DNA of 13,315 bases from Hydrogenophilales bacterium (GTDB lineage Bacteria > Pseudomonadota > Gammaproteobacteria > Burkholderiales > Thiobacillaceae). The DNA lies in assembly GCA_011391655.1 (NCBI GenBank), contig JAABQE010000110.1, positions 1 to 13,315 on the forward strand, read 5' to 3'. Positions 213 to 13,315 of this stretch are shown here, piece by piece (the stretch's first letter is position 1; every line of letters starts with the position of its first letter). The notes beneath the pieces are model-generated. The model saw only the letters and a program-made list of their open reading frames with translations, ran no database searches and was not told where the DNA came from. The translations under genes were made by a program, and so were the position numbers.

Positions 213-1601
213 TCAGGCCGCCAGTTTTGCCATGGCGGCCGACATTGTCAGGAGCGCCGCGACGCCCGGATAGCTGAAACGGAATTGCGGATCACCATGA
301 CCTTCGCGCCGTTCCAGCAGGTCAACCGAATTGACGAACAGCTTGAGATCGCGCTCGATGCTGATCGGCGTAACGCCGCCGCCCATTTCGGCATAAACGT
401 CATCGATGGTGAACCAGCCATCGGCCGTGCTGCCAGCGCGCGCCGCGGCAATCAGCAGCGACCAGTGCGTGCGGGCTTCTTCGCGAACCAGATTGGCCTG
501 GACGCGGCGCGGCAGGCTGGCCTGCCAATCGGCGATGACCTTTTCCACCGCGGTGCGCGCGTCGGCATAGCTGACTTCGTCACGCTTTGCGGTGAGTGCG
601 GTCAGGCCGGCCTGGTGACCCAGCAACCGGACGAGATACGGCGACCCGCCGGCCATGCGGGTGATGAGCGTCAGCGCGTCCTTGCTGTAGGTGATCTCGG
701 CAGCGACTTCACCCATGCGCAGCAGATCGCGCACTTCGCTGGGGGCGAGAGGCGTCATCGGCAGGCCGGCAATGTTGCGGCGGATCGACGGTGCGTAACC
801 GATCAACTCGTCGAGGTTCAGGGCCACGCCGGTGATCACCAGCTGCACACGCGCGGCGCGGTCCGACAAATTCTTGATCAACTCGGCGACTTCGCGGCGG
901 AAGTTCACATCGACGACGCGGTCATATTCGTCGAGGATGACAATCACGCGCGTGCCGACGACGCCAGACAGGACTTCGGCCAGCTCGCGCGCGCCAAACG
1001 GGCCCTCCGGCAGCATGGTTTCGAAGGTGCCGGCCTTTTCGCCTTCAGGCGAATTCGGAAGGACAGACGCGTGATAGAGGCGCGGAATGCGCGCCAGCAC
1101 GGAGCGGAACATGTCCGGGAAATTCGCCGCAGTGCCGCAACTGGCATAGATCACGTGATAACGGGCTTCGCGTGCAGTTTCGGCAAAAACGTGGGCCAGG
1201 CTGGTCTTGCCGATCCCGCGCTCACCATAGACGACCACGTGAACGCGCTGTTCTTCCACAGCATTGATCAGCGCCGACATCGCATCGCGTCGACCGGCGA
1301 AGGTTTCGCGGGCGACAACTGGCTGTGACGCGCCGAGGGCGTCGCGCAGGGCAAGACGGCGACGTGCGCCGTCATTGTTGCTGTCTGTTTCCACGTCGTC
1401 CGACGCGCTGGCAATGAAACGCGGCAGCATCGGACCCGGCTCGGCCGGTGATACTGGCGAGTTCCAAGCAAAATTATTTGCCACTGGCGCCTGTTCGGGC
1501 GTCATTGCCATCTCCATCGGCGGTTCGAAGAATTCGGCCGGGGCCACAATTGTCGGCTCGTCCGCGTCCCCCCGCGTCCTGCGCTTCCAGATCATCTGCA
1601 T
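213..1601 (-). CDS. AAA+/ORC-like P-loop ATPase of the polysaccharide locus
   Basis: A 462-residue cytoplasmic ATPase. A low-complexity, Pro/Glu-rich leader (1-95) is followed by FAGRRDAMSALINAVEE (101-117), typical of the start of AAA_16/ORC-type modules. Walker A is GERGIGKTS (126-134), Walker B is VIVILDEYDR (219-228, with D224-E225), and a sensor-1-like strand LVITG sits at 254-258. The C-terminal ~90 residues look like a winged-helix domain. No membrane segment or signal peptide is seen. Related ATPases occur in exosortase-linked polysaccharide loci of other proteobacteria (PEP-CTERM system-associated, ExeA-like), where their exact job is not settled; membership of that group is my inference. 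The start at 1601 has GAGGA 5 nt upstream; M3 (1595) is also possible. It is divergent from the export operon and upstream of the glycosyltransferase gene. STAND-like regulation is an alternative role. Confidence 0.85.
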   Translation of the reverse strand: MQMIWKRRTRGDADEPTIVAPAEFFEPPMEMAMTPEQAPVANNFAWNSPVSPAEPGPMLPRFIASASDDVETDSNNDGARRRLALRDALGASQPVVARETFAGRRDAMSALINAVEEQRVHVVVYGERGIGKTSLAHVFAETAREARYHVIYASCGTAANFPDMFRSVLARIPRLYHASVLPNSPEGEKAGTFETMLPEGPFGARELAEVLSGVVGTRVIVILDEYDRVVDVNFRREVAELIKNLSDRAARVQLVITGVALNLDELIGYAPSIRRNIAGLPMTPLAPSEVRDLLRMGEVAAEITYSKDALTLITRMAGGSPYLVRLLGHQAGLTALTAKRDEVSYADARTAVEKVIADWQASLPRRVQANLVREEARTHWSLLIAAARAGSTADGWFTIDDVYAEMGGGVTPISIERDLKLFVNSVDLLERREGHGDPQFRFSYPGVAALLTMSAAMAKLAA

Positions 1602-1870
1602 CCCTGTCCTCGTCTATACGCGTCGCAACCACATGCGATATACGACCGCTAGCGGCTGCATGTTGCGGCGGGTGTGCCACGAAGTGCGCCCGGAAGCGAG
1701 TGGCAAAACGGCATCAAATCAGCCGAACTGCCCAAAAAAGCCCATGAAGCCGGGGTGGATGGTTGCCGCACCTGCCATCTCAGTGTAGCAATTATGCGCA
1801 AATGGTGTGGAAGGCGGGCAGTTTTTTGCCTCTCTGCAACGCCAGATGGTGGATTGGGGATACAGGTTTG
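1602..1870. promoter_or_regulatory. Divergent intergenic region between ATPase and export operon
   Basis: This 269-bp non-coding gap separates two divergent transcription units and must hold both promoters. I could not identify a convincing -35/-10 pair for either direction. It contains a nested inverted repeat at 1624-1667, annotated separately. Open frames through it have no recognisable protein content; the one reading into the beta-barrel gene from 1763 adds 36 residues that do not resemble a signal peptide. No RNA gene was recognised. Confidence 0.6.
1624..1667. repeat. Nested inverted repeat, candidate operator
   Basis: The outer arms are CGCAACCACATGC (1624-1636) and GCATGTTGCG (1658-1667). 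They are complementary except for a 3-nt insertion (CCA) in the left arm. Between them lies a perfect 10-bp palindrome, CCGCTAGCGG (1646-1655). Its place just upstream of the ATPase start and between divergent genes fits a dimeric regulator site or an mRNA leader hairpin of the ATPase transcript. The binding protein is unknown. Confidence 0.4.
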
Positions 1871-3217
1871 ATGAAGTTGCGGACAGCAGCAGGGCTGACT
1901 GGAACGGGGGTGCCGCTTGGCTTGTTCCTGTCCTTGACCTTTGCGCAAGCCGTTGCATTGCCGGCAGCAGCCCAACAATCGGGTCTGCCGGCGATGCGCG
2001 ACAATGATGATGCGCCTATTCGCAACGCTGGCGGCGTTGGCGGGGTTGCGGGTTATCCCGGACGTGGTCTGCAGTTCGGTTTCAACGTGTCCAGCCGTTA
2101 CGAAAGCAATCTGGGCCGGCAGAATCTGCCTGACGCCGGTTACCGCATTCGTCCCCAGGTCGACGGGAGATATGGCATAGGGTTGGGGCAGCAGGGCCTG
2201 TACGTGGAAGGCACGTTGGCGCGCGATATGTTCTTCAGCGCGCCAAATCTGCGCGACCGTAACCGTTATCAGCTTGGCGCCGGGCTCGATTATCGTCTGT
2301 CGAGATGCAGCGGGCAGTTGGGCGGCAGTTGGCAGCGGTCGCTGGTATTCCAGAGCGAGGCGGTGGCCTTTGGTTCGCTTCAGCAGGATAGCACCCGACT
2401 TGGACTGAGTGCCAATTGTCGCATCAGCGGCGCGATCGGGGTGAACGGTTCGGTGTCCAAGCAGGAATTCAAGACCGAAGTGGGTCAGGGCACCGCCTTC
2501 AACGTCAGCACCACGAGCTATTCTCTGGGCCTCAGCTTTGGTAGCGCAGGATTGGGCCAATTCTCGTTGAGCGGGTCGAGTAGCGACTCGCAGATGCCGG
2601 GACGTCTTGTGGTGACAGCGGACGGACTCGTGGAAGACAGTCTGACCCAGCGCAATGTCCGTTTTGGTTACACCCGCTCGTTTGGCAGCAAGATCAATGT
2701 CGGGCTGGGCGTTTCCTACATCAACAGCCAGCCAGGTACGGACGAGCAGTTGGTCTTGATTGACAACGTGCCGCAGTTGGTGCCCCGCGAAGGTTTCAAA
2801 GGTGCTGGTTTTGATGCAGCACTGGATCTGAACCTTTCTCCGCGCCTCGACGTGTCCTTCTCAGCCAATCGCAGCACATTCGCCAACCCCAATGTCGGAG
2901 CGCAATTCTCCGTGGCGACCAACTATTCTGCTGTGGTCAATTATCGATTGAATCAGCGTTATTCCGTTGCAGTCGGTGCCTCGCGGAGAGAAAATAACTA
3001 TCGTGGCGGCTTTGCGTCTTCGCTGGATCCCTTCGTCCGCGTTGCGGATACGCTGGACCGTTTTTACGGCCAGATTGGCGCTCGCCTGGGTCAGCGACTT
3101 CGTCTGACCTTCGACATCGCCCACAATCGCCGGAAATCCAACCCTGCCATTTTGAATTTTTCATCGACGGGTGTCGGTCTCAACCTTGGCGTTCAGTTCG
3201 GAAGAGGACAACGATGA
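1871..3217 (+). CDS. Outer-membrane beta-barrel protein of exopolysaccharide export
   Basis: A 448-residue protein. The start at 1871 is chosen because it gives a typical Sec signal peptide: MKLR, a hydrophobic core to about residue 30, then PAAAQQ with likely cleavage near residue 34. The in-frame ATG at 1763 would put 36 non-signal residues in front. The mature part is rich in alternating polar/hydrophobic strands ending in aromatic residues, and the C-terminus ends VGLNLGVQF plus five residues, like the closing strand of an outer-membrane barrel. Two cysteines (C146, C183) could form a disulfide. The stop overlaps the next start by 4 nt (ATGA), so it is coupled to the Wza-like gene. Together they probably form the outer-membrane exit for the polymer, the barrel being the pore. 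I recognise the fold, not a named family; exosortase-linked loci often carry such a barrel. Confidence 0.85.
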   Translation: MKLRTAAGLTGTGVPLGLFLSLTFAQAVALPAAAQQSGLPAMRDNDDAPIRNAGGVGGVAGYPGRGLQFGFNVSSRYESNLGRQNLPDAGYRIRPQVDGRYGIGLGQQGLYVEGTLARDMFFSAPNLRDRNRYQLGAGLDYRLSRCSGQLGGSWQRSLVFQSEAVAFGSLQQDSTRLGLSANCRISGAIGVNGSVSKQEFKTEVGQGTAFNVSTTSYSLGLSFGSAGLGQFSLSGSSSDSQMPGRLVVTADGLVEDSLTQRNVRFGYTRSFGSKINVGLGVSYINSQPGTDEQLVLIDNVPQLVPREGFKGAGFDAALDLNLSPRLDVSFSANRSTFANPNVGAQFSVATNYSAVVNYRLNQRYSVAVGASRRENNYRGGFASSLDPFVRVADTLDRFYGQIGARLGQRLRLTFDIAHNRRKSNPAILNFSSTGVGLNLGVQFGRGQR

Positions 3218-4008
3218 AATCTATAGCGGCAACCGCAGCCATCGCGCTGGCTTTGGCCAGCACCGGAGTGGCCCAATATGCTGCTGCCCAGACGGTCAGC
3301 AGCCCGAAGGGTTATGTTCTTGGTCCGGATGATACCGTGCAGGTGATCGTCTACGGCCAGAGCGAGTTCAACGTCACCACGCGTGTGAAGGCGGATGGCT
3401 CAATCGTGATGCCGCTGATCGGGATCGTGCAGGCGGAAGGGCAGACCAACATCACCCTCGCCAAGCAGATTACCGATAAACTGGTGTCCGGCGGTTACCT
3501 CAAGCAGCCTTTGGTCAACATCGAGGTGGGGGCCTATGTCTCGCGATCGGTGAATGTGGCGGGCAGCGTTTCGTCGCCCGGCATCGTTCCGCTGGACCGT
3601 CCGTATCATGCTCTGGAAGCCTTGCTGAAGGCAGGATGGGTGAGGGGCGATGGCGCGACATTTGTATATTTGCGGCGACAGGGCCAGACCGAGCGCAAGC
3701 TTGACGTGGAGCAGTTGGTGCGCGGCGGCGCCGAGGCCGATCCGTTGCTGGAGCCCGGCGACACGCTGTTTGTCCCGCAGGCGGAAACCTTCTTTATCTA
3801 CGGTCAGATCAATTCGCCGGGCATGAAGGCCATTCTTCCTGGAATGACGGTGCGTCAGGCGATTGGTCTGGCAGGCGGCGTCACCCCGTCAGGCAAGGCT
3901 GACAAGGTCGGGTTGGTGCGTGCCAGCACCGGCAAGGAAATTGATGCCGACCCTTCGCAGAAAATTCAGAATGGCGACGTTATCATAATCAAGGAGCGGT
4001 TGTTCTGA
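3214..4008 (+). CDS. Short Wza/OPX-type polysaccharide export protein (SLBB domains)
   Basis: A 264-residue periplasmic protein. The signal peptide covers residues 1-26, with an AAAQ-TV cleavage region. There is no cysteine anywhere, so it is not a lipoprotein as E. coli Wza is. A Poly_export domain (about 32-106) starts YVLGPDDTVQVIVYGQ. It is followed by two SLBB domains: VAGSVSSPGIVPL (115-127) and YGQINSPGMKAI (196-207) mark their starts. The protein stops right after SLBB2, so the C-terminal amphipathic helix that forms the Wza outer-membrane pore is missing (about 380 residues in Wza). It therefore likely needs the preceding beta-barrel protein to cross the outer membrane. The start overlaps that gene by 4 nt and has an AGAGGA ribosome site at 3203-3208. 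Family assignment is firm; the pairing is inference from length and context. Confidence 0.93.
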   Translation: MKSIAATAAIALALASTGVAQYAAAQTVSSPKGYVLGPDDTVQVIVYGQSEFNVTTRVKADGSIVMPLIGIVQAEGQTNITLAKQITDKLVSGGYLKQPLVNIEVGAYVSRSVNVAGSVSSPGIVPLDRPYHALEALLKAGWVRGDGATFVYLRRQGQTERKLDVEQLVRGGAEADPLLEPGDTLFVPQAETFFIYGQINSPGMKAILPGMTVRQAIGLAGGVTPSGKADKVGLVRASTGKEIDADPSQKIQNGDVIIIKERLF

Positions 4009-4081: not shown

Positions 4082-5476
4082 ATGAGCCTGATTCAATTGT
4101 TGCGTATTCTGATCGCGCGCCGCCTCATCCTTCTTGGCTGCTTGGGCCTGTGTCTGGTGGTCGCTGTGGGGGTTGGTTTGATCTTGCCTGCACGCTACCC
4201 GGCGACGGCACGTGTCATGATGGACAATTTCAAGCCCGATCCTGTGACGGGAGCGATGATGAACGTTGCTGGCCTTCGCACGTTCACACGGACGCAGCTG
4301 GAGTTGATCAAGGATTATCGCATCGCCGGTGAAGCGGTGGACCGGCTTGGCATGGCCAACAATCCGCAGCTGCAGGCAGCATGGCAAAGCGAGACCGGTG
4401 GTTTCGGTGATTTCCGCCGTTGGCTGTCGGATCGGATCGTCGCCAGCGTGCAGGTGAACCTGGTCGAAGGCAGCAACATTCTGGCGATTTCGTACGAAGC
4501 GCCAAACCCCGAAATCGCCCGCCGCACGGTCAATGCTCTGCGCGATGCCTATATCGACAACAGCCTGCGCCTGCGGACCGACACGGCTGGGCGGACGGCT
4601 GAATGGTATCGTGAGCAGGCTGGACGCGCGCTGAAGGCGTTGGAAGCGGCCGAAGCAACCAAGACGAAATTCGAACAGGATAACGGCATCGTCATGACAT
4701 CCGCCGGTGAAGCGGAGTCCGTCAAGTTGGCCAGCTTGCAGGCGGCCCTTACCGCCGCGCGCAGTGGCCAGTCTGTTCAGCAATTCGAAGCCATGCGCCA
4801 ATCCACTACGTCGACCGTGGTGGAGACGCTGAAGGTTCAGCTTGCCACGTTGAACGATCAGATCGAGCAGGCATCCGAGCGTCTTGGTGTTCAGCATCCG
4901 ACCTACATCGCCATGCTGTCGCGCCGTGGGCAGCTGGAACGGCAGCTGGGACGCGAGCAGGCCGTCGCTCGACAGGCCGGTGCGATGCAGCTGGGGGCAT
5001 CCCGCAGTGGCATTGCGCAGCTGGAAAGCGATTATGAAGCGCAGCGTTCCAAGGTGTTCGCCATGAAGGAGAAGCTGGACAAGCTGAACCAATTGGTCAG
5101 CGAAGTGCAGTTGCGTCGTCAGCAGTATGAACAGGCAGCAAAGCGCACCAGCGAACTTCAGCTTGAGTCCAACGTCGCTGACTCCGGCCTTATCGTGCTG
5201 GGTGACGCAACGGTCACGAACAAGCCGTCCTTCCCGAACTGGCCGCTGATTTTCGGGCTTGCGGCCGGCGCAGGCCTCGCCCTGGGCCTGGTGATGAGCC
5301 TGTTGGTCGAGCTTCTGAACCGCCGTGTGCGCGGCGCTGAAGATCTCAGCCTTGCCTCGCGCGTTCCGGTGTTTGCGGTCATCGCAGACCGCAAGCGGCC
5401 CGAATGGCAGCAGGTGATCAAGCGCATCCTGACCCGCGGTAAAACCAATCAAGTCGGCTGGCAGCCGGCGCAATGA
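4082..5476 (+). CDS. Wzz-type polysaccharide co-polymerase / chain-length determinant
   Basis: A 464-residue inner-membrane protein with the Wzz/GumC layout. Membrane segment 1 is at about 15-36 and a periplasmic Wzz domain follows (ATARVMMD at 41-48, then FTRTQLELIKDYRIA at 68-82). A long Gln/Glu/Arg-rich coiled coil runs from about 175 to 365, a proline motif KPSFPNWP is at 381-388, and membrane segment 2 is at about 388-411. The cytoplasmic tail of about 50 residues starts NRRVRGAEDL. These proteins oligomerise in the inner membrane, set polymer length and dock onto the periplasmic OPX protein. The kinase-like domain is not fused here but encoded by the next gene, which overlaps by 4 nt (ATGA). 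No in-frame upstream start with a better ribosome site exists. Family is clear; the polymer is unknown. Confidence 0.93.
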   Translation: MSLIQLLRILIARRLILLGCLGLCLVVAVGVGLILPARYPATARVMMDNFKPDPVTGAMMNVAGLRTFTRTQLELIKDYRIAGEAVDRLGMANNPQLQAAWQSETGGFGDFRRWLSDRIVASVQVNLVEGSNILAISYEAPNPEIARRTVNALRDAYIDNSLRLRTDTAGRTAEWYREQAGRALKALEAAEATKTKFEQDNGIVMTSAGEAESVKLASLQAALTAARSGQSVQQFEAMRQSTTSTVVETLKVQLATLNDQIEQASERLGVQHPTYIAMLSRRGQLERQLGREQAVARQAGAMQLGASRSGIAQLESDYEAQRSKVFAMKEKLDKLNQLVSEVQLRRQQYEQAAKRTSELQLESNVADSGLIVLGDATVTNKPSFPNWPLIFGLAAGAGLALGLVMSLLVELLNRRVRGAEDLSLASRVPVFAVIADRKRPEWQQVIKRILTRGKTNQVGWQPAQ

Positions 5477-6456
5477 GCATGGATGCAATGAACAACAGCG
5501 ACAGCGTGGCTCCCGAGCCAGAAGTGCAGCCTGACAGCGCACCGGACATCATAGAAGATCAGGTCGGTGATTCCGTCGCTGCGTCGGTCGTCGCTGGCGG
5601 TGTCGACGGCAGTGATCGGTTTGATGCGCCCATTCGCGATGTGCTGGTCCGGATGGGCCATCTGAGCGAAGATCAGGTTGCCCGGGTGATTGGACACGCG
5701 GCAACACGCGGCCTCGATTTCGATCAGGCGGCGCTTGAACTGGGTTTCATCACGACGGATGAACTGGATCGCGCGCGCGAACAGCTGATCAACAGCATGG
5801 CGTTGCAGAACGTCGCGCGTCGGCCCGTGTCGGAGGAGCTTGTTGCGCTGTCCGATCCAGGATCGGTGCGGGCTGAAACCGTACGTATGCTGCGGACGCA
5901 GATTATCGCCCAGCACATCAAGAATGGTCGGCGCGGTCTGGCGGTCGTGGCTGCTGCCGATGGGCATGGCTGCTCCTTTGTCGCGGCCAATCTGGCGGTC
6001 TCACTCAGCCAGGTCGGTTTCAAGATCCTGCTGGTGGACGCCAACATGCGATCGCCGCGGCAGGATCAGATCTTTGGCGTTGATCCCAACGCCCCCGGTC
6101 TGTCGAGCTTCCTGACCATGCAGGTCGCAAGGCCTGAACGGGTGGTGAACGCCAACGTGGTCCCCGGCTTGGCCCTGATCACTGCAGGCCCGCCGACCAG
6201 CCGCCCACAGGAACTTCTGTCGGGCAACCGCTTCCGCGACGGGGTCAACACGCTGCTGCGTGAATATGATCTCGTGATTTTCGATACGCCGGCCGCCAAT
6301 ACCAACGCCGACGCGCTGAACGTTGGTGGTGCCGCAGGCTATGCCCTGCTCGTGGGGCGCACCAATGACAGCTATTACCGTGACATCAATACGCTCACCA
6401 ACCAGCTGGCTGCTGCCCGTTGTGCCGTGGTGGGAGCAGTTTTGAACGAATTCTGA
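5473..6456 (+). CDS. BY-kinase-like ATPase with degenerate P-loop and GspE_N/MshEN-like head
   Basis: A 327-residue cytoplasmic protein. Residues 1-50 are acidic and disordered. Residues 52-105 hold two tandem helical motifs (VLVRMGHLSEDQV and AALELGFITTDEL), like the N-terminal domain of GspE/PilB ATPases. Residues 125-327 follow the CpsD/CapB tyrosine-autokinase fold: RAETVRMLRTQI, a P-loop strand, the Walker A' region LLVDANMRSP (186-195), AGPPTSRPQELL (238-249) and Walker B YDLVIFDTP (265-273). The P-loop reads GHGCS (164-168) where the family has GEGKS/T, so Cys167 replaces the ATP-binding lysine. Walker A' has Asn191 where the second Asp is expected. The protein ends at LNEF, without the tyrosine cluster that is normally autophosphorylated. 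It is therefore probably a pseudokinase or scaffold partner of the co-polymerase, with which it overlaps by 4 nt. The homology is clear; loss of activity is inferred. Confidence 0.88.
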   Translation: MSMDAMNNSDSVAPEPEVQPDSAPDIIEDQVGDSVAASVVAGGVDGSDRFDAPIRDVLVRMGHLSEDQVARVIGHAATRGLDFDQAALELGFITTDELDRAREQLINSMALQNVARRPVSEELVALSDPGSVRAETVRMLRTQIIAQHIKNGRRGLAVVAAADGHGCSFVAANLAVSLSQVGFKILLVDANMRSPRQDQIFGVDPNAPGLSSFLTMQVARPERVVNANVVPGLALITAGPPTSRPQELLSGNRFRDGVNTLLREYDLVIFDTPAANTNADALNVGGAAGYALLVGRTNDSYYRDINTLTNQLAAARCAVVGAVLNEF

Positions 6457-7358
6457 TGCCCGATCCAGCCGGCATGACCAATATTGCTGCTCCGACAGGC
6501 GGTGATCTCAAGGCGCTGCTGCTGCGGCACTGGCCAATGTGGCTGGGCCTTGCCGCAATGGCGTTTCCGACGTTGGTGGCTTTGGCGCAGGGCCCTTGGC
6601 AGGAAGAATCCGGTGTGCACGGCATCATCGTGCTTGTCACTGGACTCTGGCTTGTCTGGCGACGCCAAGCGGAAATTGCCGCTGTGGAGCAACCGGGCAG
6701 TCCGCTGGTGACAATCCTGCTGCTTGCGGTGGCCTTGCCGCTCTATGGGGCGGGCCGGGCGTTTGAATTCATCAGCATTGAAGCCGCAGCCTTGCTGCTC
6801 GCCATGGTGGCTGTTGCGCACCAATATCTGGGAACGCCGGCGCTGAAGCTGCTGTGGTTCCCGATCCTGTATCTGGGCTTTGTGATCCCACTGCCGGGCT
6901 GGTTTCTCGACAGCATCACCCTGCCGTTGAAGGAACTGGTTTCGGCCATCGTGACTGACAGCCTTGCTGCGGTCGGATATCCTGTCGGCCGGATGGGGGT
7001 CACACTTTATATCGGCTCCTATCAGTTGCTGGTTGAGGATGCCTGCGCTGGCCTGAATTCGCTCGTCAGCCTGTCTGCAATTGGCCTGTTTTATGTTTAT
7101 CTTCTGCGCGGATCGAACCCGGTCTATTCCGCACTGCTGTTGGCAATGGTGATCCCCATCGCGATTGCCGCAAATTGTGTGCGCGTCGCGGCACTGGTGT
7201 TGATAACCTATCACTTCGGCAATGCCATGGCGCAGGGATATCTGCACAACTTCGCCGGCATGGTGACCTTTGTTTCGGCCTTGCTTCTCATTTTTGCGCT
7301 TGATTGGGCTGCGACGCCGCTTCGGCGCCGGCTGGCCCGTGCAGGAGATGCAACATGA
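6456..7358 (+). CDS. xrtV: Exosortase (sphingomonad-type, probably XrtV)
   Basis: A 300-residue multi-spanning inner-membrane cysteine protease/transpeptidase that cuts and sorts proteins carrying a C-terminal PEP-CTERM-like tag. The expected catalytic residues are all present: Cys197 in VEDACAGLNSL (193-203), Arg243 in ANCVRVAAL (239-247) and His264 in YLHNFAGM (262-269). About eight hydrophobic segments surround them. The ATG at 6456 overlaps the previous stop (TGATG, 1 nt) and fits coupling; an internal Met at residue 7 is possible. The DACAGLNSLVSL wording, with the separate EpsI gene and the 85-residue neighbour, points to exosortase V rather than XrtA; this subtype call is from memory of the family. 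No tagged substrate gene is visible in the window, so targets must lie elsewhere. The stop overlaps epsI by 4 nt. Confidence 0.9.
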   Translation: MPDPAGMTNIAAPTGGDLKALLLRHWPMWLGLAAMAFPTLVALAQGPWQEESGVHGIIVLVTGLWLVWRRQAEIAAVEQPGSPLVTILLLAVALPLYGAGRAFEFISIEAAALLLAMVAVAHQYLGTPALKLLWFPILYLGFVIPLPGWFLDSITLPLKELVSAIVTDSLAAVGYPVGRMGVTLYIGSYQLLVEDACAGLNSLVSLSAIGLFYVYLLRGSNPVYSALLLAMVIPIAIAANCVRVAALVLITYHFGNAMAQGYLHNFAGMVTFVSALLLIFALDWAATPLRRRLARAGDAT

Positions 7359-8053
7359 GCGTGCCAAGCCGACGCGACGTTCTTATGGGGGGGGCGCTGC
7401 TGGCCAGTGCAGGCACGGCGGCTGCCCTGGTGCCGCGCGATCGTCTGGTGTTGATGCCTGAAGGGCATGAGCTGGAACAGATGGTGCCCCAAAAGATCGG
7501 GTTGTGGACCCACGTGCCCAGCCCGGGCATCGTGCTGCCACGGACAGAAGGCAGCCTGTCAGCCAAGATCTACGGCGAGGTATTGAGCAGGATATATTAC
7601 GCGCAGGACCGGCTGCCGGTGATTTTGGTGATTGCCTATGGGCCAGTTCAGAATGACCTGTTGCAACTTCACCGGCCCGAAGTCTGCTATTCCGCCGTGG
7701 GTTTCGATATTTCGGAAACCGTACAGCGACCGTTGATGATGGGACGCGGTGTGGCGCTGCCCGCGCGGCAGTTGGTGGCTCGTTCGGAATCACGCACGGA
7801 AACCATCAGTTATTGGACACGTGTTGGCGATGATCTGCCAACCAATGGTACGGAGCAGCGGATGGTGAAGCTGCGCCAGCAATGGGACGGCTACATTGCT
7901 GACGGCATATTGGTGCGCATGAGCTGTGCGGTGCCGCCGGATGCAAAGGTTCTCGACCAGCTGTCAGAATTTGCTCGTCTGCTTGTCAGCTCGGTGCCAG
8001 CCATTGATCGGCCGGCGCTGATCGGGCGCAAATATGCGGCGCGATTGGCATGA
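7355..8053 (+). CDS. epsI: Exosortase-associated protein EpsI
   Basis: A 232-residue EpsI-family protein. In many exosortase systems EpsI is fused to the C-terminus of the exosortase or encoded next to it; its biochemical role is not known. The conserved signature HRPEVCYSAVGFDI (106-119) with Cys111 is present, as is YWTRVGD (153-159). The start at 7355 is supported by AGGAG at 7343-7347 and the ATGA overlap with the exosortase stop; the in-frame ATG at 7304 lies within the exosortase gene. The N-terminus SRRDVLMGGALLASAG (5-20) is a good twin-arginine signal: an SRRxVL box followed by a modest hydrophobic stretch ending near TAAA. Export by the Tat route would place the domain in the periplasm. 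It is the last gene of the plus-strand unit; a strong hairpin follows 17 bp later. Confidence 0.9.
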   Translation: MSVPSRRDVLMGGALLASAGTAAALVPRDRLVLMPEGHELEQMVPQKIGLWTHVPSPGIVLPRTEGSLSAKIYGEVLSRIYYAQDRLPVILVIAYGPVQNDLLQLHRPEVCYSAVGFDISETVQRPLMMGRGVALPARQLVARSESRTETISYWTRVGDDLPTNGTEQRMVKLRQQWDGYIADGILVRMSCAVPPDAKVLDQLSEFARLLVSSVPAIDRPALIGRKYAARLA

Positions 8054-8106: not shown

Positions 8107-8364
8107 TCAGTTCTGGCCGAACGGCTGCAGCACGCGCCAAATGAAGGCGATGGTTGCACCGAACAGCGCGATTGCGCCGGCGTGCAGCAGCATTTCACCG
8201 GATTTGATGGCTTCGTTGCCAAGATAATTGGTGAACGCGCAGCCAAGTGCCGCCACCAGATATTGCCAGAGATGGTCTCGCGGTTCCCCCTGACTGCGCT
8301 GCAGGAACAGAACAATCAGACCGGCGAACGTCATCACCGTCAGCCAGTCATAAGGCGTTTCCAT
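8107..8364 (-). CDS. Small membrane protein, exosortase (XrtV) system accessory
   Basis: An 85-residue protein. The start at 8364 (METPYDWLTV) is chosen over the longer frame from 8448 because GAGGGAGA lies about 9 nt upstream and the 28 extra residues look like non-coding sequence. Three hydrophobic segments are visible: about 9-23, 35-50 and 62-78. The sequence from YDWLTV through FLQRS, LWQYL and NYLGNE to the C-terminal VLQPF matches my memory of small proteins annotated as XrtV sorting-system accessory proteins in sphingomonads; I cannot verify this without a search. It is transcribed opposite to the exosortase operon and convergent with epsI, so it has its own promoter. Its role is unknown; closeness to the exosortase and the membrane character suggest a helper or assembly part. 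Confidence 0.72.
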   Translation of the reverse strand: METPYDWLTVMTFAGLIVLFLQRSQGEPRDHLWQYLVAALGCAFTNYLGNEAIKSGEMLLHAGAIALFGATIAFIWRVLQPFGQN

Positions 8365-8388
8365 GCAACACTCTCCCTCGCACGCGAT

Positions 8389-8417
8389 CCTATAACAAGT
8401 TACGGGCGGCTTGCCAC
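8389..8417 (-). promoter_or_regulatory. Candidate sigma70-type promoter of the small membrane gene
   Basis: On the minus strand GTGGCA (8417-8412) and TATAGG (8394-8389) are separated by 17 bp, each matching four of six consensus bases. Transcription would start near 8382, about 18 nt before the ATG at 8364 and just ahead of its ribosome site. The surrounding 107-bp gap (8365-8471) must also hold the promoter of the sugar transferase, for which I see only AT-rich patches (CAATATTCATAG around 8439-8450). Confidence 0.35.
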
Positions 8418-8471
8418 GATGTTTGCGCATCTTTGGTGCAATATTCATAGGGCCGAGCGGGAGATGGGGGC

Positions 8472-9929
8472 GTGAACCGCCAGCAAGCGATCAAGCCCGT
8501 GGGTGCTGAAGCATCAAGCGGGCCCGGCGTCCCCCTGAGTCTGGCGGTGCTGCTGATGCGGCTGGCCGAGTTTCTGGCGGTCGGCGGCTTTGGCCTGTGG
8601 CTGGTCAATGCCGTGCCGATCGAACTCGGCAGTTTTGTTGAACTCCACAGCCGGGTCACGCTGATCGCCAGCCTGGCCTTTGCCATCATGGCCGAAAGCC
8701 TGGGCGCCTACGATGTGGAGGCCCAATTCTCGCTCCGCGAGGGTTGGCGCCGCGTGCTGATGGCTTGGGTGATGACCGCGCTGTTTCTCACCACCATGGG
8801 CTTCCTGTTGAAAACGTCGGAAGAAATTTCGCGCGGGTGGGCCATATTGTGGTTTGCAGGCGGGACCGTCGCGTTGCTTGCGACGCGTGCCGCTGCCACC
8901 TTGTGGGTTCGCAGGCTGAAACGGCGTGGCACGTTCAATGAACGGGTGGCGATCTTTGGCACTGGTCCTCAGGCACAGCGCTTTGCTGAATATGTGCTCA
9001 ACAGTGACCGGCTGACCATCACACTTGTCGGCGTGTTCGATGACCGACAGCCGGATCGCCTGCCGCCAGACGTTGCGGGTGTACCGGTGCTGGGCAATTT
9101 CGATGCGCTTGTGGACATGATCCGCGCCGGTTTGATCGATCAAGTGGTCCTGGCCTTGCCATGGGCGGCGGAAAAGCGGCTCCAGAGGCTGGTGGAGGCG
9201 TTGGCGCAAACGCCGGTCAAGCTGCGGCTGGCGCCTGATCTGGTGACGTTCACCTTCGCGCATCGGCCGGTGGTGATCCTGGGCGATCTGCCGGTGATGA
9301 CATTGTTCGAACGGCCGATCTCGGGGCTGTCAGGCATCGCCAAGACGATCGAAGACAAGCTGCTGGCTGGATTGATCCTGTTGTTCATCTGGCCGGTGTT
9401 GCTGTTGGTTGCGCTGGCGGTGAAACTGGATTCGACTGGCCCCATCCTGTTTCGGCAACCGCGCGAGGGTTTCAACAACCAGCCGTTCCGCTGCTACAAG
9501 TTCCGGACGATGTATCACGACCGTCTGGAGTACAAGGATATCAACCAGGCTGGCCGCGATGATCCGCGCATCACACGTGTTGGTCGTATCCTGCGCCGCA
9601 CCAGTCTGGATGAACTGCCCCAGTTGCTGAATGTACTGCAGGGCGACATGAGCCTGGTGGGCCCCCGCCCGCACGCACCGTCAACGCGCGCGGCCGGCAA
9701 GCTGTTTTCGGACGTGGTGCAAAGCTATGCCGCCCGTCACAAGGTGAAGCCTGGCATCACCGGCTGGGCGCAGGTGAATGGCTGGCGCGGCGAGACCGAC
9801 ACCGAAGACAAGATTGTCAAACGAGTCGAGCACGACCTTTATTACATCGAAAATTGGTCGATCGGGTTCGATCTCTACATCCTGCTCCGCACGGTTGGTG
9901 CCGTGCTGCTGCCTCGCAACGCTTTTTGA
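8472..9929 (+). CDS. Undecaprenyl-phosphate sugar-1-phosphate transferase (WcaJ/PssY-type)
   Basis: A 485-residue polyprenyl-phosphate hexose-1-phosphate transferase, the enzyme that starts lipid-linked repeat-unit synthesis by moving a sugar phosphate from a nucleotide sugar to undecaprenyl phosphate. Four N-terminal membrane segments span about 22-145. A Rossmann-like CoA_binding_3 domain covers about 155-280 ([13 protein letters not shown] at 159-171). A re-entrant/membrane helix follows (291-318, with Pro308), then the catalytic domain: KFRTM (343-347), SLDELPQ (378-384, with the Asp380-Glu381 dyad), [10 protein letters not shown] (391-400) and [17 protein letters not shown] (426-442). 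Length and order match the WcaJ/HfsE/PssY group; glucose is the usual sugar, but galactose cannot be excluded. The GTG start at 8472 is preceded by GGGAGA 7 nt away. No partner gene lies downstream on the same strand before the metabolic gene. Confidence 0.93.
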
Positions 9930-10095
9930 AGCCGCCTAGAGAGGCTGTGGGCAATATGTCGCACGGTTCAAAAATTGCTGTTGCGCACTTGGCGCGGACA
10001 TAATCTTACCTTAAGCGCGGCTAATAGAAATTGTTCCTGTCCGCTGGGCGTGGCTTTGGCGCCGTCCTCCGAACAGAATGAAGGGCAGAGCCACG
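9930..10095. other. Intergenic gap between polysaccharide locus and metabolic gene
   Basis: 166 bp without a credible gene. A small stem, GCCT-AGAG-AGGC (9934-9945), follows the sugar transferase stop but lacks a T-run and is too weak to call a terminator. A promoter candidate for the next gene is listed separately. The sequence is locally more AT-rich than its surroundings. Confidence 0.5.
9975..10004 (+). promoter_or_regulatory. Candidate promoter of the propionyl-CoA synthase-like gene
   Basis: TTGCTG (9975-9980) and CATAAT (9999-10004) are separated by 18 bp. The -10 matches five of six consensus bases; the -35 matches only its TTG. It lies about 90 bp upstream of the ATG at 10096, leaving a leader of roughly 80 nt in which I see no known riboswitch. 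Confidence 0.3.
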
Positions 10096-13000
10096 ATGTA
10101 CGATCCCGCCGCTCCGATGCGTCCGCCGGTCCCCCGGCCGCAGATCAATCCGGTGCGCAACCGCGCCGATTGGGATGCCATGCGTGCGGCCGTGCTGGCC
10201 GATCCGGGTGCATTTCATGGTGAAATCGCGGCGCGCAACCTGCACTGGTTGATGGACGTTGATGGTCGCCCGGCGTGGGTGAGCCGCGCAGACGACGGCA
10301 CCTGGCAGGGCTGGGACGCCGAAACCGCCGCACCGGTATCGCGCAGCAGGGACGGTGGCCTGCCGTGGACGCGGGCCTTCAACGCGGATGATGCGCCCAA
10401 CTTCCGTTGGTTCGAAGGTGGCCGCACCAATGCCGCCTTCAATGAACTGGATCGCCACGTGCTGGCGGGCCACGGCACCGAAGCCGCCTTCATCTTTGAA
10501 GGTGACCGCTGGGACCTGGCCGCCGAACAGGGCCGCGGCGCACCGGTGGATTGCTTGACCGTCTCGCGCCGCCAGTTGTTGCTGGAAGCTGCCAAGTGTG
10601 CCGTGGCGTTGCAGCGATTGGGCCTCAAGGCTGGCGACCGCATTGCACTGAATATGCCGAACATTCCGGCCCAGCTTTATTGGACGGAGGCCGCCAAGCG
10701 CATCGGTGTGATTTACACCCCGGTGTTCGGTGGCTTTTCGGACAAGACGCTGTCGGATCGGATCCACGATGCCGGCGCGCGCATCGTCATCACGGCTGAT
10801 GGCGGCTACCGCAACGCGCAGGTGGTGCCGTTCAAGACGGCTTACACCGATCCTGCGCTCGACAATTATGTGCCGGTTGCTGTGGCACTGCGCCTGCTGG
10901 AGGAACGGTTGGCCGGCGAAGATCTGGGTCTGTCGGCCGACACGCGCACGGCGATGGCGGCAATCGTCACGGCGGCCCTGAAGGGCGAAGTGACGGTCGA
11001 ACGCGGCGATGTGATGCGCGGCCTGGGCCGTGCGCTGGCCGAACTGGGCAAGGACGCGCTGGTTGATGCGGCTCAATCTGCCCGCATCCGCATCGCCATT
11101 GCCGAAGCGTTGGTGGCGACGCCGCCACGCGTGGAAGCCGTGATTGTCGCCACCCATGTGCAGGTGCCCGACATTGTCTGGCGTGACCGTGACGTGTGGG
11201 GCCATGATCTGACCAACGCGGCGCTGGCCGAAATCCTGGCTGCCGCCGGCTTGCCCGATGAAGAGGCGCTGCACGCGCTGGATGATCAGGCGTTTGTCCG
11301 CGCCATCTGGGCTGCGTCGCGGCCTCTGCCAGTGGATGCCGAATTTCCGCTATTTTTCATCTACACGTCCGGCTCCACTGGCAAACCCAAGGGCGTTGTT
11401 CACGTCCATGGCGGCTATGCCAGCGGCATCATGGAAACGATGAAGGTCGCTTTCGATGCGCGTCCGGGCGACGTGATGTTCGTGGTGGCCGATCCGGGTT
11501 GGATCACCGGCCAAAGCTATATGATTGCCGCGTCGCTGCTGTCCCGCGTCACGACGGTTCTGGCCGAAGGCTCACCCGTGTTCCCGCACGCCGGGCGCTT
11601 TGCTGCCATGATCGAACGCCATGGGGTGACGATCTTCAAGGCCGGCGTCACCTTCCTGAAGGCGGTGATGACCGATCCGCAGAATTTGAAGGATATCGAA
11701 GCCTACGACCTGTCGAAGCTGCGCGTCGCTACCTTCTGCGCCGAGCCTTGCTCGCCGCCGGTGCAGGCCTTCGGCATGGATCACATCACGCCGCAATATA
11801 TCAACAGCTATTGGGCGACCGAGCATGGTGGGATCGCCTGGACGCATTTCTATGGCAATGGCGATTTCCCGCTGGCCGCAGATGCGCGCACCTTCCCGCT
11901 GCCGTGGATCGTCGGCGACGTCTGGGTTGAAGATGAAGCCGGTGATCGCGGCGCGACCGCGTTGCTGAGCCGCAGCGGCACAGATGGTGTCAATTGGCGC
12001 CGCGCCGGCAAGGATGAAAAGGGCGAGATCATCATCGCCGCCCCCTATCCCTATCTGGCGCGCACCGTTTGGGGCGATGCTGAAAATTTCCGCGTGGAAA
12101 ATGGCGTTGTTGCAAGCGGCTGGGCTGGGGATGCGGATCGCTGGCGCGATGGCTATTGGGGCCGCTGGCAAGGCGTCTGGGCTTACACGCAGGGCGATTT
12201 CGCCGTGCAGGGTGATGATGACGGCTTTTCGCTGCATGGCCGTTCGGATGACGTGATCAACGTGTCCGGCCACCGCATGGGCACCGAGGAAATCGAAGGC
12301 GCCATCCTGCGCGACAAGGCGTTGAACCCGGAAAGCCCGGTGGGCAACGTGCTGGTGGTTGGCGCGCCGCACCGCGAAAAGGGGCTGACGCCGCTGGCCT
12401 TCATCACACCGGCGCCCGGCCAGATCATCACCCGGGATGACGAACGCCGGTTGGCGGATCTGGTGCGCACCGAAAAGGGTGCAGTGGCTGTGCCCGGCGA
12501 TTTCCTCACGGTGAGCCAGTTTCCGGAAACCCGCAGCGGCAAATATATGCGCCGCATGGTGCGCGCGCTGGTGGAAGGCACGCCGATTGGTGACGCCACC
12601 ACGCTGAAAAATCCGGAAAGCCTTGACGAGCTGAAGCGCGTGATCGGTGCGTGGGAGCGCAAGCAGCGCCTTTCGGCCGATCAGGATATCTTCGACCGCT
12701 ATCGCTATTTCCGCATTCAATACAATGTGGTGGCGCCCGGCAAGAAGGTGGCGACGGTGTTCGTCACCAATCCGCCGGTCAACGCCTTCAACGAACGCGC
12801 CATCGATGAGCTGGTCATCGTGGTCGAACATCTGTCGCGCCGGGATGATGTGGCCGCGGTGGTGTTCACAGGTGACGGCACCGCCAGTTTCGTGGCCGGC
12901 GCCGACATTCGGCAGTTCCTGGACGAAATTCACACGGTCGAAGAAGCCCGCGTGTTGCCGGCCAACGCGCAGCTGGCGTTCGGCAAGATCGAACAGATGG

Positions 13001-13315
13001 GCAAGCCGTGCGTGGCGGCCATCCAGGGCGTGGCGCTGGGCGGCGGCATGGAATTCGCGCTGGCCTGCCATTATCGCGTTGCCGAAGGCCATGCCCGCTT
13101 TGGCCAGCCCGAAATCCGTCTGCGTCTGCTGCCGGGCTATGGCGGCACGCAGCGCCTGCCGCGCCTGCTGACCGATCGGCGCGGGCCCGAAGGCCTGCTC
13201 GACGCGCTGGACCTGATTTTGGGTGGGCGCAGCATCGATGCGGCAGCGGCCCTGCAAATGGGGGCCATTGACGCGATTGCCGATGGCGCCACCGACGCCT
13301 TGAGCCTGGCCCATG
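10096..13315 (+). CDS. pcs: Propionyl-CoA synthase-like fusion: acyl-CoA synthetase + enoyl-CoA hydratase (3' end outside window)
   Basis: An uninterrupted frame of 1,073 codons runs off the window end. Residues 1-~855 form an acyl-CoA synthetase: YTSGSTGKPKG (423-433), YWATEHGG (572-579), QGDF (699-702), GRSDDVINVSGHRMG (715-729) and TRSGK with adenylation Lys816. From ~870 a crotonase domain begins: the oxyanion-hole strand AGADI (934-938), GGGMEFALAC with Glu986, and FGQPEIRL with Glu1006. These two glutamates are 20 residues apart, as in mitochondrial crotonase. Synthetase-then-hydratase order is that of propionyl-CoA synthase (Pcs, about 1,800 residues), which turns 3-hydroxypropionate into propionyl-CoA via 3-hydroxypropionyl-CoA and acryloyl-CoA. 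The expected third, enoyl-CoA reductase domain lies beyond the edge. Residues ~257-344 are an extra helical segment not found in plain acetyl-CoA synthetases. The start follows AAGGG at 10081-10085. A two-domain ligase/hydratase without the reductase remains possible. Confidence 0.87.
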   Translation, partial: MYDPAAPMRPPVPRPQINPVRNRADWDAMRAAVLADPGAFHGEIAARNLHWLMDVDGRPAWVSRADDGTWQGWDAETAAPVSRSRDGGLPWTRAFNADDAPNFRWFEGGRTNAAFNELDRHVLAGHGTEAAFIFEGDRWDLAAEQGRGAPVDCLTVSRRQLLLEAAKCAVALQRLGLKAGDRIALNMPNIPAQLYWTEAAKRIGVIYTPVFGGFSDKTLSDRIHDAGARIVITADGGYRNAQVVPFKTAYTDPALDNYVPVAVALRLLEERLAGEDLGLSADTRTAMAAIVTAALKGEVTVERGDVMRGLGRALAELGKDALVDAAQSARIRIAIAEALVATPPRVEAVIVATHVQVPDIVWRDRDVWGHDLTNAALAEILAAAGLPDEEALHALDDQAFVRAIWAASRPLPVDAEFPLFFIYTSGSTGKPKGVVHVHGGYASGIMETMKVAFDARPGDVMFVVADPGWITGQSYMIAASLLSRVTTVLAEGSPVFPHAGRFAAMIERHGVTIFKAGVTFLKAVMTDPQNLKDIEAYDLSKLRVATFCAEPCSPPVQAFGMDHITPQYINSYWATEHGGIAWTHFYGNGDFPLAADARTFPLPWIVGDVWVEDEAGDRGATALLSRSGTDGVNWRRAGKDEKGEIIIAAPYPYLARTVWGDAENFRVENGVVASGWAGDADRWRDGYWGRWQGVWAYTQGDFAVQGDDDGFSLHGRSDDVINVSGHRMGTEEIEGAILRDKALNPESPVGNVLVVGAPHREKGLTPLAFITPAPGQIITRDDERRLADLVRTEKGAVAVPGDFLTVSQFPETRSGKYMRRMVRALVEGTPIGDATTLKNPESLDELKRVIGAWERKQRLSADQDIFDRYRYFRIQYNVVAPGKKVATVFVTNPPVNAFNERAIDELVIVVEHLSRRDDVAAVVFTGDGTASFVAGADIRQFLDEIHTVEEARVLPANAQLAFGKIEQMGKPCVAAIQGVALGGGMEFALACHYRVAEGHARFGQPEIRLRLLPGYGGTQRLPRLLTDRRGPEGLLDALDLILGGRSIDAAAALQMGAIDAIADGATDALSLAH

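Follow-up and report, generated by a model that had tools for sequence, protein, structure and literature searches.

Bacterial tyrosine kinase (BY-kinase) homologs that scaffold a type 2 polysaccharide co-polymerase (PCP-2) as pseudokinases are already known. EcpK of Myxococcus xanthus and HfsB of Caulobacter were described as such proteins, with EpsV and HfsA as their PCP-2 partners; both are needed for polysaccharide, and wider predictions of BY pseudokinases are credited to Cuthbertson and colleagues (PMC12004946). Here, a stretch of 13,315 nucleotides (positions 1 to 13,315 of contig JAABQE010000110.1, assembly GCA_011391655.1, deposited as Hydrogenophilales bacterium; called the window in the following) was analyzed with a focus on an EpsG-like gene located between the genes for the Wzz-type co-polymerase EpsF and an exosortase. 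Most likely, the encoded protein is a ring-forming, phosphorylation-independent partner of EpsF, akin to EcpK and HfsB.

As far as EcpK and HfsB are characterized in that paper, the window protein shares with them a standalone BY-kinase fold that has lost catalytic residues and the tyrosine tail, and a Wzz-type co-polymerase partner without a kinase domain. Unlike EcpK, for which the loss of all Walker motifs is described, the window protein has mainly lost the Walker A lysine, whereas G166, Ser168, D189, D271, and the ExxRxxR motif are kept. It also differs from the published description of both proteins by an extra N-terminal domain, an exosortase locus, and a linked AAA+ ATPase gene. The protein and its elements are encoded as follows:

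5473..6456, forward strand: EpsG-like protein with BY-kinase fold, 327 amino acids (best NCBIfam match TIGR03029, AlphaFold model, Foldseek)
5623..5790, forward strand: N-terminal domain related to the MshE cyclic di-GMP (c-di-GMP) motif, degenerate (NF053729, 19.2 bits, cut-off 38)
5875..5895, forward strand: E135xxR138xxR141, BY-kinase ring-interface motif, present in 25 of 25 sequences of the window clade
5962..5976, forward strand: P-loop GHGCS, residues 164-168, with Cys167 at the Walker A lysine site (codon TGC, 5971-5973)
6028..6051, forward strand: Walker A' LLVDANMR, residues 186-193, D189 retained, second Asp replaced by N191
6271..6291, forward strand: Walker B LVIFDTP, residues 267-273, D271 retained

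TIGR03029 (EpsG) was the best family match with 200 bits over residues 51-326; this score lies under the cut-off of 313.8, and the protein is therefore named EpsG-like. The CpsD/CapB-type BY-kinase fold proposed by an earlier sequence-only reading was borne out by an AlphaFold model with a pLDDT (predicted local distance difference test) of 85.8, for which Foldseek gave CapA1B1-ADP-Mg (4jlv) as top match with an E-value of 3.1e-17; CapAB(K55M) and Wzc(K540M) were also among the matches. The same reading had pointed to three losses, all of which are found in the protein. The motif GxGK[ST] is not present, and Cys167 of GHGCS takes the place of the Walker A lysine. The second aspartate of Walker A' is N191, with the Walker A' and Walker B aspartates D189 and D271 present. 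The C terminus, VVGAVLNEF, follows directly after the last strand without a tyrosine-rich tail; the four tyrosines of the protein are located at positions 265, 290, 301, and 302, and the last 25 residues contain none. The degenerate N-terminal domain and the linked AAA+ ATPase had escaped the earlier reading.

Residues E135, R138, R141, G166, S/T168, D189, and D271 are retained in all 25 sequences of the window clade, i.e., the window protein and 24 further loci. The motif EX2RX2R was described as a conserved BY-kinase interface (PMC3795738). The BY-kinase CapA1B2(K55M), engineered from lysine to methionine, formed an octamer with ADP-Mg (PMC3795738), and Wzc K540M, which was termed inactive, gave octamers as well (PMC11986026). 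Hence, a protein lacking this lysine is expected to hold nucleotide and to form a ring without phosphorylating. By analogy, the window protein probably still binds Mg-nucleotide, and we infer from its residues that it is a catalytically inactive EpsG-type BY pseudokinase.

The replacement of the lysine proved to be a common property of the relatives. In an alignment of the window protein with the best 120 of 1951 matches, the lysine site was Cys in 120 of the 121 sequences and Thr in one (P0064), Gly166 was present in all, residue 168 was invariably Ser or Thr, and the second Walker A' aspartate was Asn in 119. All 25 sequences of the window clade carry Cys, so that the cysteine does span a clade, a point which the sequence-only reading had left to be checked. 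Furthermore, comparison of the gene with eight relatives (NG86 method) revealed nonsynonymous rates (dN) of 0.106-0.198 and synonymous rates (dS) of 0.89-1.15, with synonymous sites near saturation, and a dN/dS of about 0.09-0.19. Since dN is far below dS, the gene does not appear to decay but to be under purifying selection. The reading frame is intact and coupled on both sides, as stated before: the start shares ATGA (5473-5476) with the epsF stop, and the stop shares TGATG (6454-6458) with the start of the exosortase gene.

A genome scan for related loci identified 111, of which the best 80 (L001-L080) were analyzed. The scan pattern demanded Asn in Walker A', so that counts of this Asn are biased there; the lysine site lay outside the pattern. 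Lysine was found in 11 of the 80 loci, namely in the EpsG-like proteins of L043 and L051, in a short Bacillota protein (L068), and in eight long, mostly Wzc-type frames. In a sister clade of seven loci, the site is Ala (six) or Val (one), and eight other alphaproteobacterial loci have Cys (three), Thr (three), or Ser (two). Among 296 genomes of the order Sphingomonadales, the 22 best-scoring EpsG loci carry Cys (12), Ala (six), Thr (two), Arg (one), or Val (one), and none carries Lys; the next eight loci by score are Wzc-type frames, one of them ending at a contig edge, and all eight have Lys. The top-scoring core EpsG protein itself has Cys; the best 120 of its 5832 relatives comprise 102 with Cys, seven with Ser, six with Gly, four with Ala, one with Arg, and none with Lys.

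Additionally, the search was extended to 250 genomes from the order to which a Rugamonas genome belongs, taken here to be Burkholderiales. Sixty-five of 71 listed matches were read, the remaining six being located in frames of 724-919 amino acids. The lysine site was Arg in 30, Lys in nine, Ala in eight, Val in five, Cys in four, Thr in three, and Ile in one, and was gapped in five. Above the TIGR03029 cut-off one of 44 proteins had Lys, below it eight of 21. Orthologs with an intact GxGK[ST], which would have made the case a local one, thus did not occur among the close homologs examined and were limited to distant EpsG-like proteins, i.e., these nine and L043 and L051. The earlier wording that a pseudokinase stands in place of the BY-kinase at this locus has to be revised: loss of the lysine is a trait of most EpsG proteins examined.

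A tree of 100 sequences was built without the P-loop; 41 of its 97 inner branches had a support below 80. Changes between Lys and any other residue occurred at least five times and changes of the residue letter at least 31 times, with losses indistinguishable from regains. Arg could be a step on the way from Lys to Cys, which by the genetic code lies one base further (CGC to TGC). Among the 65 proteins, Lys was found in one of 44 with an exosortase match in the flanks (about 1.5-2 kb) and in eight of 21 without (Fisher P = 0.0003). Only three independent exosortase-Lys pairs exist when starred branches are counted, and ten when every branch is, and significance was not reached in the sign test; with so few pairs, we do not claim that loss of the lysine is tied to a neighboring exosortase. 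Exosortase V itself was matched in two of 240 genomes of the class (E up to 1e-60).

Further observations concern the P-loop region of individual loci. The EpsG loci L049, L054, and L057 (two from Iodobacter) have a shortened P-loop with the sequence EVAGELIA, which is more eroded than that of the window protein. At the lysine site, Ala or Thr is present in the long Wzc-like frames of the Planctomycetota loci L071, L072, L073, and L075, three of which carry the label Phycisphaerales; these sequences suggest pseudokinases fused to a co-polymerase. In a metagenome-assembled genome, the EpsG frame of L009 (10001-11767; also L124) is frame-shifted near its end and runs into exosortase V, possibly by an assembly error.

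A kinase acting in trans was considered as well. It appears unlikely in ten of 15 genomes, in which no BY-kinase-like match besides EpsG was found above 61 bits (E up to 1e-10). An eleventh genome (G004) has a second frame of 795 amino acids with 75.4 bits. One Methylobacter genome (G015) has an EpsG with GDGGS plus an XrtA-type tyrosine kinase with GKS and a tyrosine-bearing tail. Of three further matches examined for contrast, those in G192 and G171 have tyrosine-rich tails, and that in G138 did not read through in a single frame.

A second system close to the window is the promonan (prm) cluster of Sphingomonas LM7, for which deletion of prmE (AAA+), prmF (Wzz/EpsF), or prmG (CpsD/CapB family) was each reported to cause an exopolysaccharide-negative phenotype; prmG was termed a bona fide BY-kinase, and the second required ATPase was taken as a hint of a more complex machinery (PMC11340318). 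The LM7 protein P0297 has the P-loop LQGGDEAS and, at the Walker B site, LLAYLAER; both Walker A and the Walker B aspartate are missing. Among 71 proteins of the P0297 type, 64 have Ala, six Gly, and one Thr in place of the lysine; at the Walker B aspartate, 70 have Leu and one has a gap. A 94% relative of P0297 is encoded in a locus (L274) with the gene order WcaJ-EpsL-EpsE-AAA+-EpsF-EpsG-like, which matches that of prmA-G when the small prmB is left out of the comparison. This gene order makes P0297 the probable PrmG, and its sequence indicates that the designation as bona fide BY-kinase is likely a mis-annotation. If P0297 is PrmG, it follows from the published deletion of prmG that a pseudokinase is needed, and of PrmE and PrmG only the former is a plausible ATPase.

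The window resembles this cluster in having a degenerate BY-kinase-like protein, a Wzz partner, and a homologous AAA+ ATPase. Unlike the window protein, the probable PrmG also lacks the Walker B aspartate and most of the P-loop; furthermore, no exosortase match was found in the prm-like regions examined, and their AAA+ gene is located between the EpsE- and EpsF-like genes. The genes surrounding the EpsG-like gene of the window are:

213..1601, reverse strand: AAA+ ATPase of PrmE type, divergent gene (AAA_16, 46 bits, cut-off 32.6)
1763..3217, forward strand: EpsL-like outer membrane protein, mechanical start 1763 (TIGR03014, 40.5 bits, below the cut-off of 275)
3214..4008, forward strand: EpsE-like outer-membrane polysaccharide export protein (TIGR03028, 149.6 bits, below the cut-off of 262.65)
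4082..5476, forward strand: EpsF, Wzz-type co-polymerase without kinase domain, 464 amino acids (TIGR03017, 262.8 bits, below the cut-off of 422.75)
6456..7358, forward strand: exosortase V, XrtV (NF035943, 370.9 bits, cut-off 313)
7358..8053, forward strand: EpsI, V-type (NF045608, 258.5 bits, cut-off 228)
8472..9929, forward strand: WcaJ-type undecaprenyl-phosphate glucose phosphotransferase (TIGR03023, 494.3 bits, cut-off 410.75)

EpsF also matched the Wzz Pfam profile with 28.8 bits (cut-off 25.5). The family profile scores thus place the EpsG-like gene in an EpsE-EpsF neighborhood linked to an exosortase.

The AAA+ protein has an intact Walker A (GERGIGKTS) and an intact Walker B (ILDEYDR), and the residues of both motifs are invariant in 39 aligned AAA+ sequences (38 of the 47 frames found and that of the window). 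Its predicted structure resembles the Orc/Cdc6/RuvB fold with a best E-value of 1.4e-11 and a modest TM (template modelling) score of about 0.4. The assignment to the PrmE type is based on homology and on the intact Walker motifs, with the AAA+ protein of L274 as stand-in for PrmE. Homologs were found in 31 of the 296 Sphingomonadales genomes, namely in 20 of the 22 EpsG genomes versus 11 of the 274 others; here, the 22 are the best-scoring matches listed, the 274 include at least six with EpsG-like loci, and all these genomes share ancestry. Four of the 11 matches were weak and seven strong, and six of the strong ones had a lysine-less EpsG- or PrmG-like gene within the same region. The genomes of L031 (Phenylobacterium) and L033 likewise contain a homolog.

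Taken together, the explanation which we consider best, and to which we give reasonable though by no means full credence, is an EpsG pseudokinase ring on EpsF combined with an ATP-driven step by the AAA+ protein. The EpsG-like protein would dock on the cytoplasmic end of EpsF, and its conserved ring interface would help the co-polymerase ring to form. Mg-nucleotide would probably be bound, with no transfer of phosphate to tyrosine; hence, autophosphorylation could not drive ring assembly and disassembly. The linked PrmE-type AAA+ protein (213-1601, reverse strand) would serve as ATPase of the co-polymerase and provide the step driven by ATP, which might consist in remodelling of the ring formed by EpsF and EpsG. 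A more far-reaching version, which we put forward only tentatively, is that the Sphingomonadales have entirely uncoupled the co-polymerase cycle from tyrosine phosphorylation: the lysine-less EpsG/PrmG ring would serve as adaptor, and a dedicated PrmE-type AAA+ protein would drive the Wzz ring to assemble and disassemble.

Several results weigh against this explanation. Lysine is kept in the nine of 65 Burkholderiales proteins, eight of them below the family cut-off, and in EpsG-like L043 and L051. For beta- and gammaproteobacterial EpsG loci among L001-L080, flanks of up to 10 kb gave no AAA+ match, and none was obtained in the genomes of L035, G251, and G239. In G204 (L178), which has the seventh strong match, the AAA+ gene (8994-10442) has no EpsG gene nearby, and a PEP-CTERM FxDxF gene (6700-7416) lies at a distance of about 1.6 kb. 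As far as tested, Sphingomonadales and a single Phenylobacterium genome were the only ones to show the link; it may reflect lineage history, and separate steps for PrmE and PrmG are conceivable. Ayabe-Chujo 2012 is said to be a study of Methylobacillus EpsF and EpsG. This work and Paiment 2002 are cited for autophosphorylation of EpsG family proteins (PMC4815439). The non-catalytic scaffold suggested by the sequence-only reading thus stands as the best reading of the sequence, with this cited autophosphorylation set against it. Since the AAA+ gene was not found with these loci and genomes, loss of the lysine does not require it. A role of the AAA+ protein as general substitute for the kinase was rejected, as the beta- and gammaproteobacterial loci among L001-L080 gave no AAA+ match.

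In WNK kinases, a different basic residue substitutes functionally for the absent lysine. Accordingly, the EpsG-like protein could be an unusual but active kinase or ATPase in which another basic residue, e.g., K184 or R193, replaces the lysine, and which phosphorylates its own scattered tyrosines or another protein. This is unlikely in our view, although K184 and R193 are invariant in 53 aligned sequences, the Mg-ligand positions S/T168, D189, and D271 are retained in the window clade, and tyrosines 265, 290, 301, and 302 would be available; the autophosphorylation cited in PMC4815439 would fit as well. However, 99 of 121 proteins (120 core EpsG proteins and that of the window) have no tyrosine within the last 40 residues, the window protein being the one with three. 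Moreover, at least 31 letter changes at the lysine site of the 100-sequence tree fit a lost constraint better than a tuned replacement, and in PrmG relatives the Walker B aspartate is gone as well (Leu in 70 of 71).

Still less probable is that EpsG acts as a second-messenger sensor, with the MshE-like N-terminal domain binding c-di-GMP and switching the co-polymerase ring in place of phosphorylation. Seven EpsG-type proteins were scanned with NF053729, and four of them (L036, L041, L058, L185) passed the cut-off of 38 bits with 38.7-48.3 bits; in contrast, the window protein and L011 reached only 19.2 bits each, and no match was listed for L022 or the PrmG relative of L171. In addition, RFG of many Burkholderiales EpsG proteins reads DFD in the window protein. 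The domain is therefore unlikely to be a sensor in the window protein, where it is probably a relic, with a sensor function being possible in other EpsG proteins. The four proteins above the cut-off, which belong to other clades, join an MshE-related c-di-GMP-motif domain to a lysine-less kinase fold.

A lone mutation, a sequencing error, or a decaying gene is practically negligible as explanation: support for it was not found, the cysteine common to 120 of 121 homologs rules out the first two, and the low dN/dS, the intact frame, and both overlaps speak against decay.

The pseudokinase ring with a linked AAA+ ATPase remains the preferred reading. With TIGR03029, designated 'chain length determinant protein tyrosine kinase EpsG', the window has in common the gene order EpsE-EpsF-EpsG-exosortase-EpsI of many EpsG loci; it differs in the low score (200 versus 313.8 bits) and the degenerate N-terminal domain. 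Fold and ring motif are shared with the BY-kinases Wzc and CapAB, whereas their GxGK[ST] and tyrosine-rich tail are not. The XrtA-associated tyrosine autokinase TIGR03018 is likewise a BY-kinase-like partner of an exosortase-linked Wzz protein, but unlike the window protein the TIGR03018-type protein of Methylobacter L259 (190 bits, below the cut-off of 230.65) keeps GKS and a tyrosine-bearing tail.

Among the papers listed in searches of open-licence literature, titles and the beginnings of abstracts contained no report of lysine loss across EpsG or of an AAA+ link to pseudokinases. Most of the members examined here of a family that NCBI designates a tyrosine kinase lack the BY-kinase lysine; numerous annotations, and models of how chain length is controlled, may therefore be incorrect. 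The linked AAA+ gene would also explain why LM7 should require two ATPases, a puzzle raised in print, since one of the two does not resemble an ATPase. If the more far-reaching version is true, polysaccharide chain length and export would be controlled in an ATP-driven, kinase-free manner. The AAA+ idea is directly testable, as deletion mutants and complementation plasmids are described for prmE and prmG of LM7 (PMC11340318).

Two further reading frames were observed downstream in the window. A small hydrophobic frame of 113 amino acids (8107-8448, reverse strand) is located between the EpsI and WcaJ genes. The frame at 10078-13314 (forward strand) is acyl-CoA synthetase-like, continues into an enoyl-CoA hydratase-like part and then runs off the window; it presumably resembles a trifunctional propionyl-CoA synthase.

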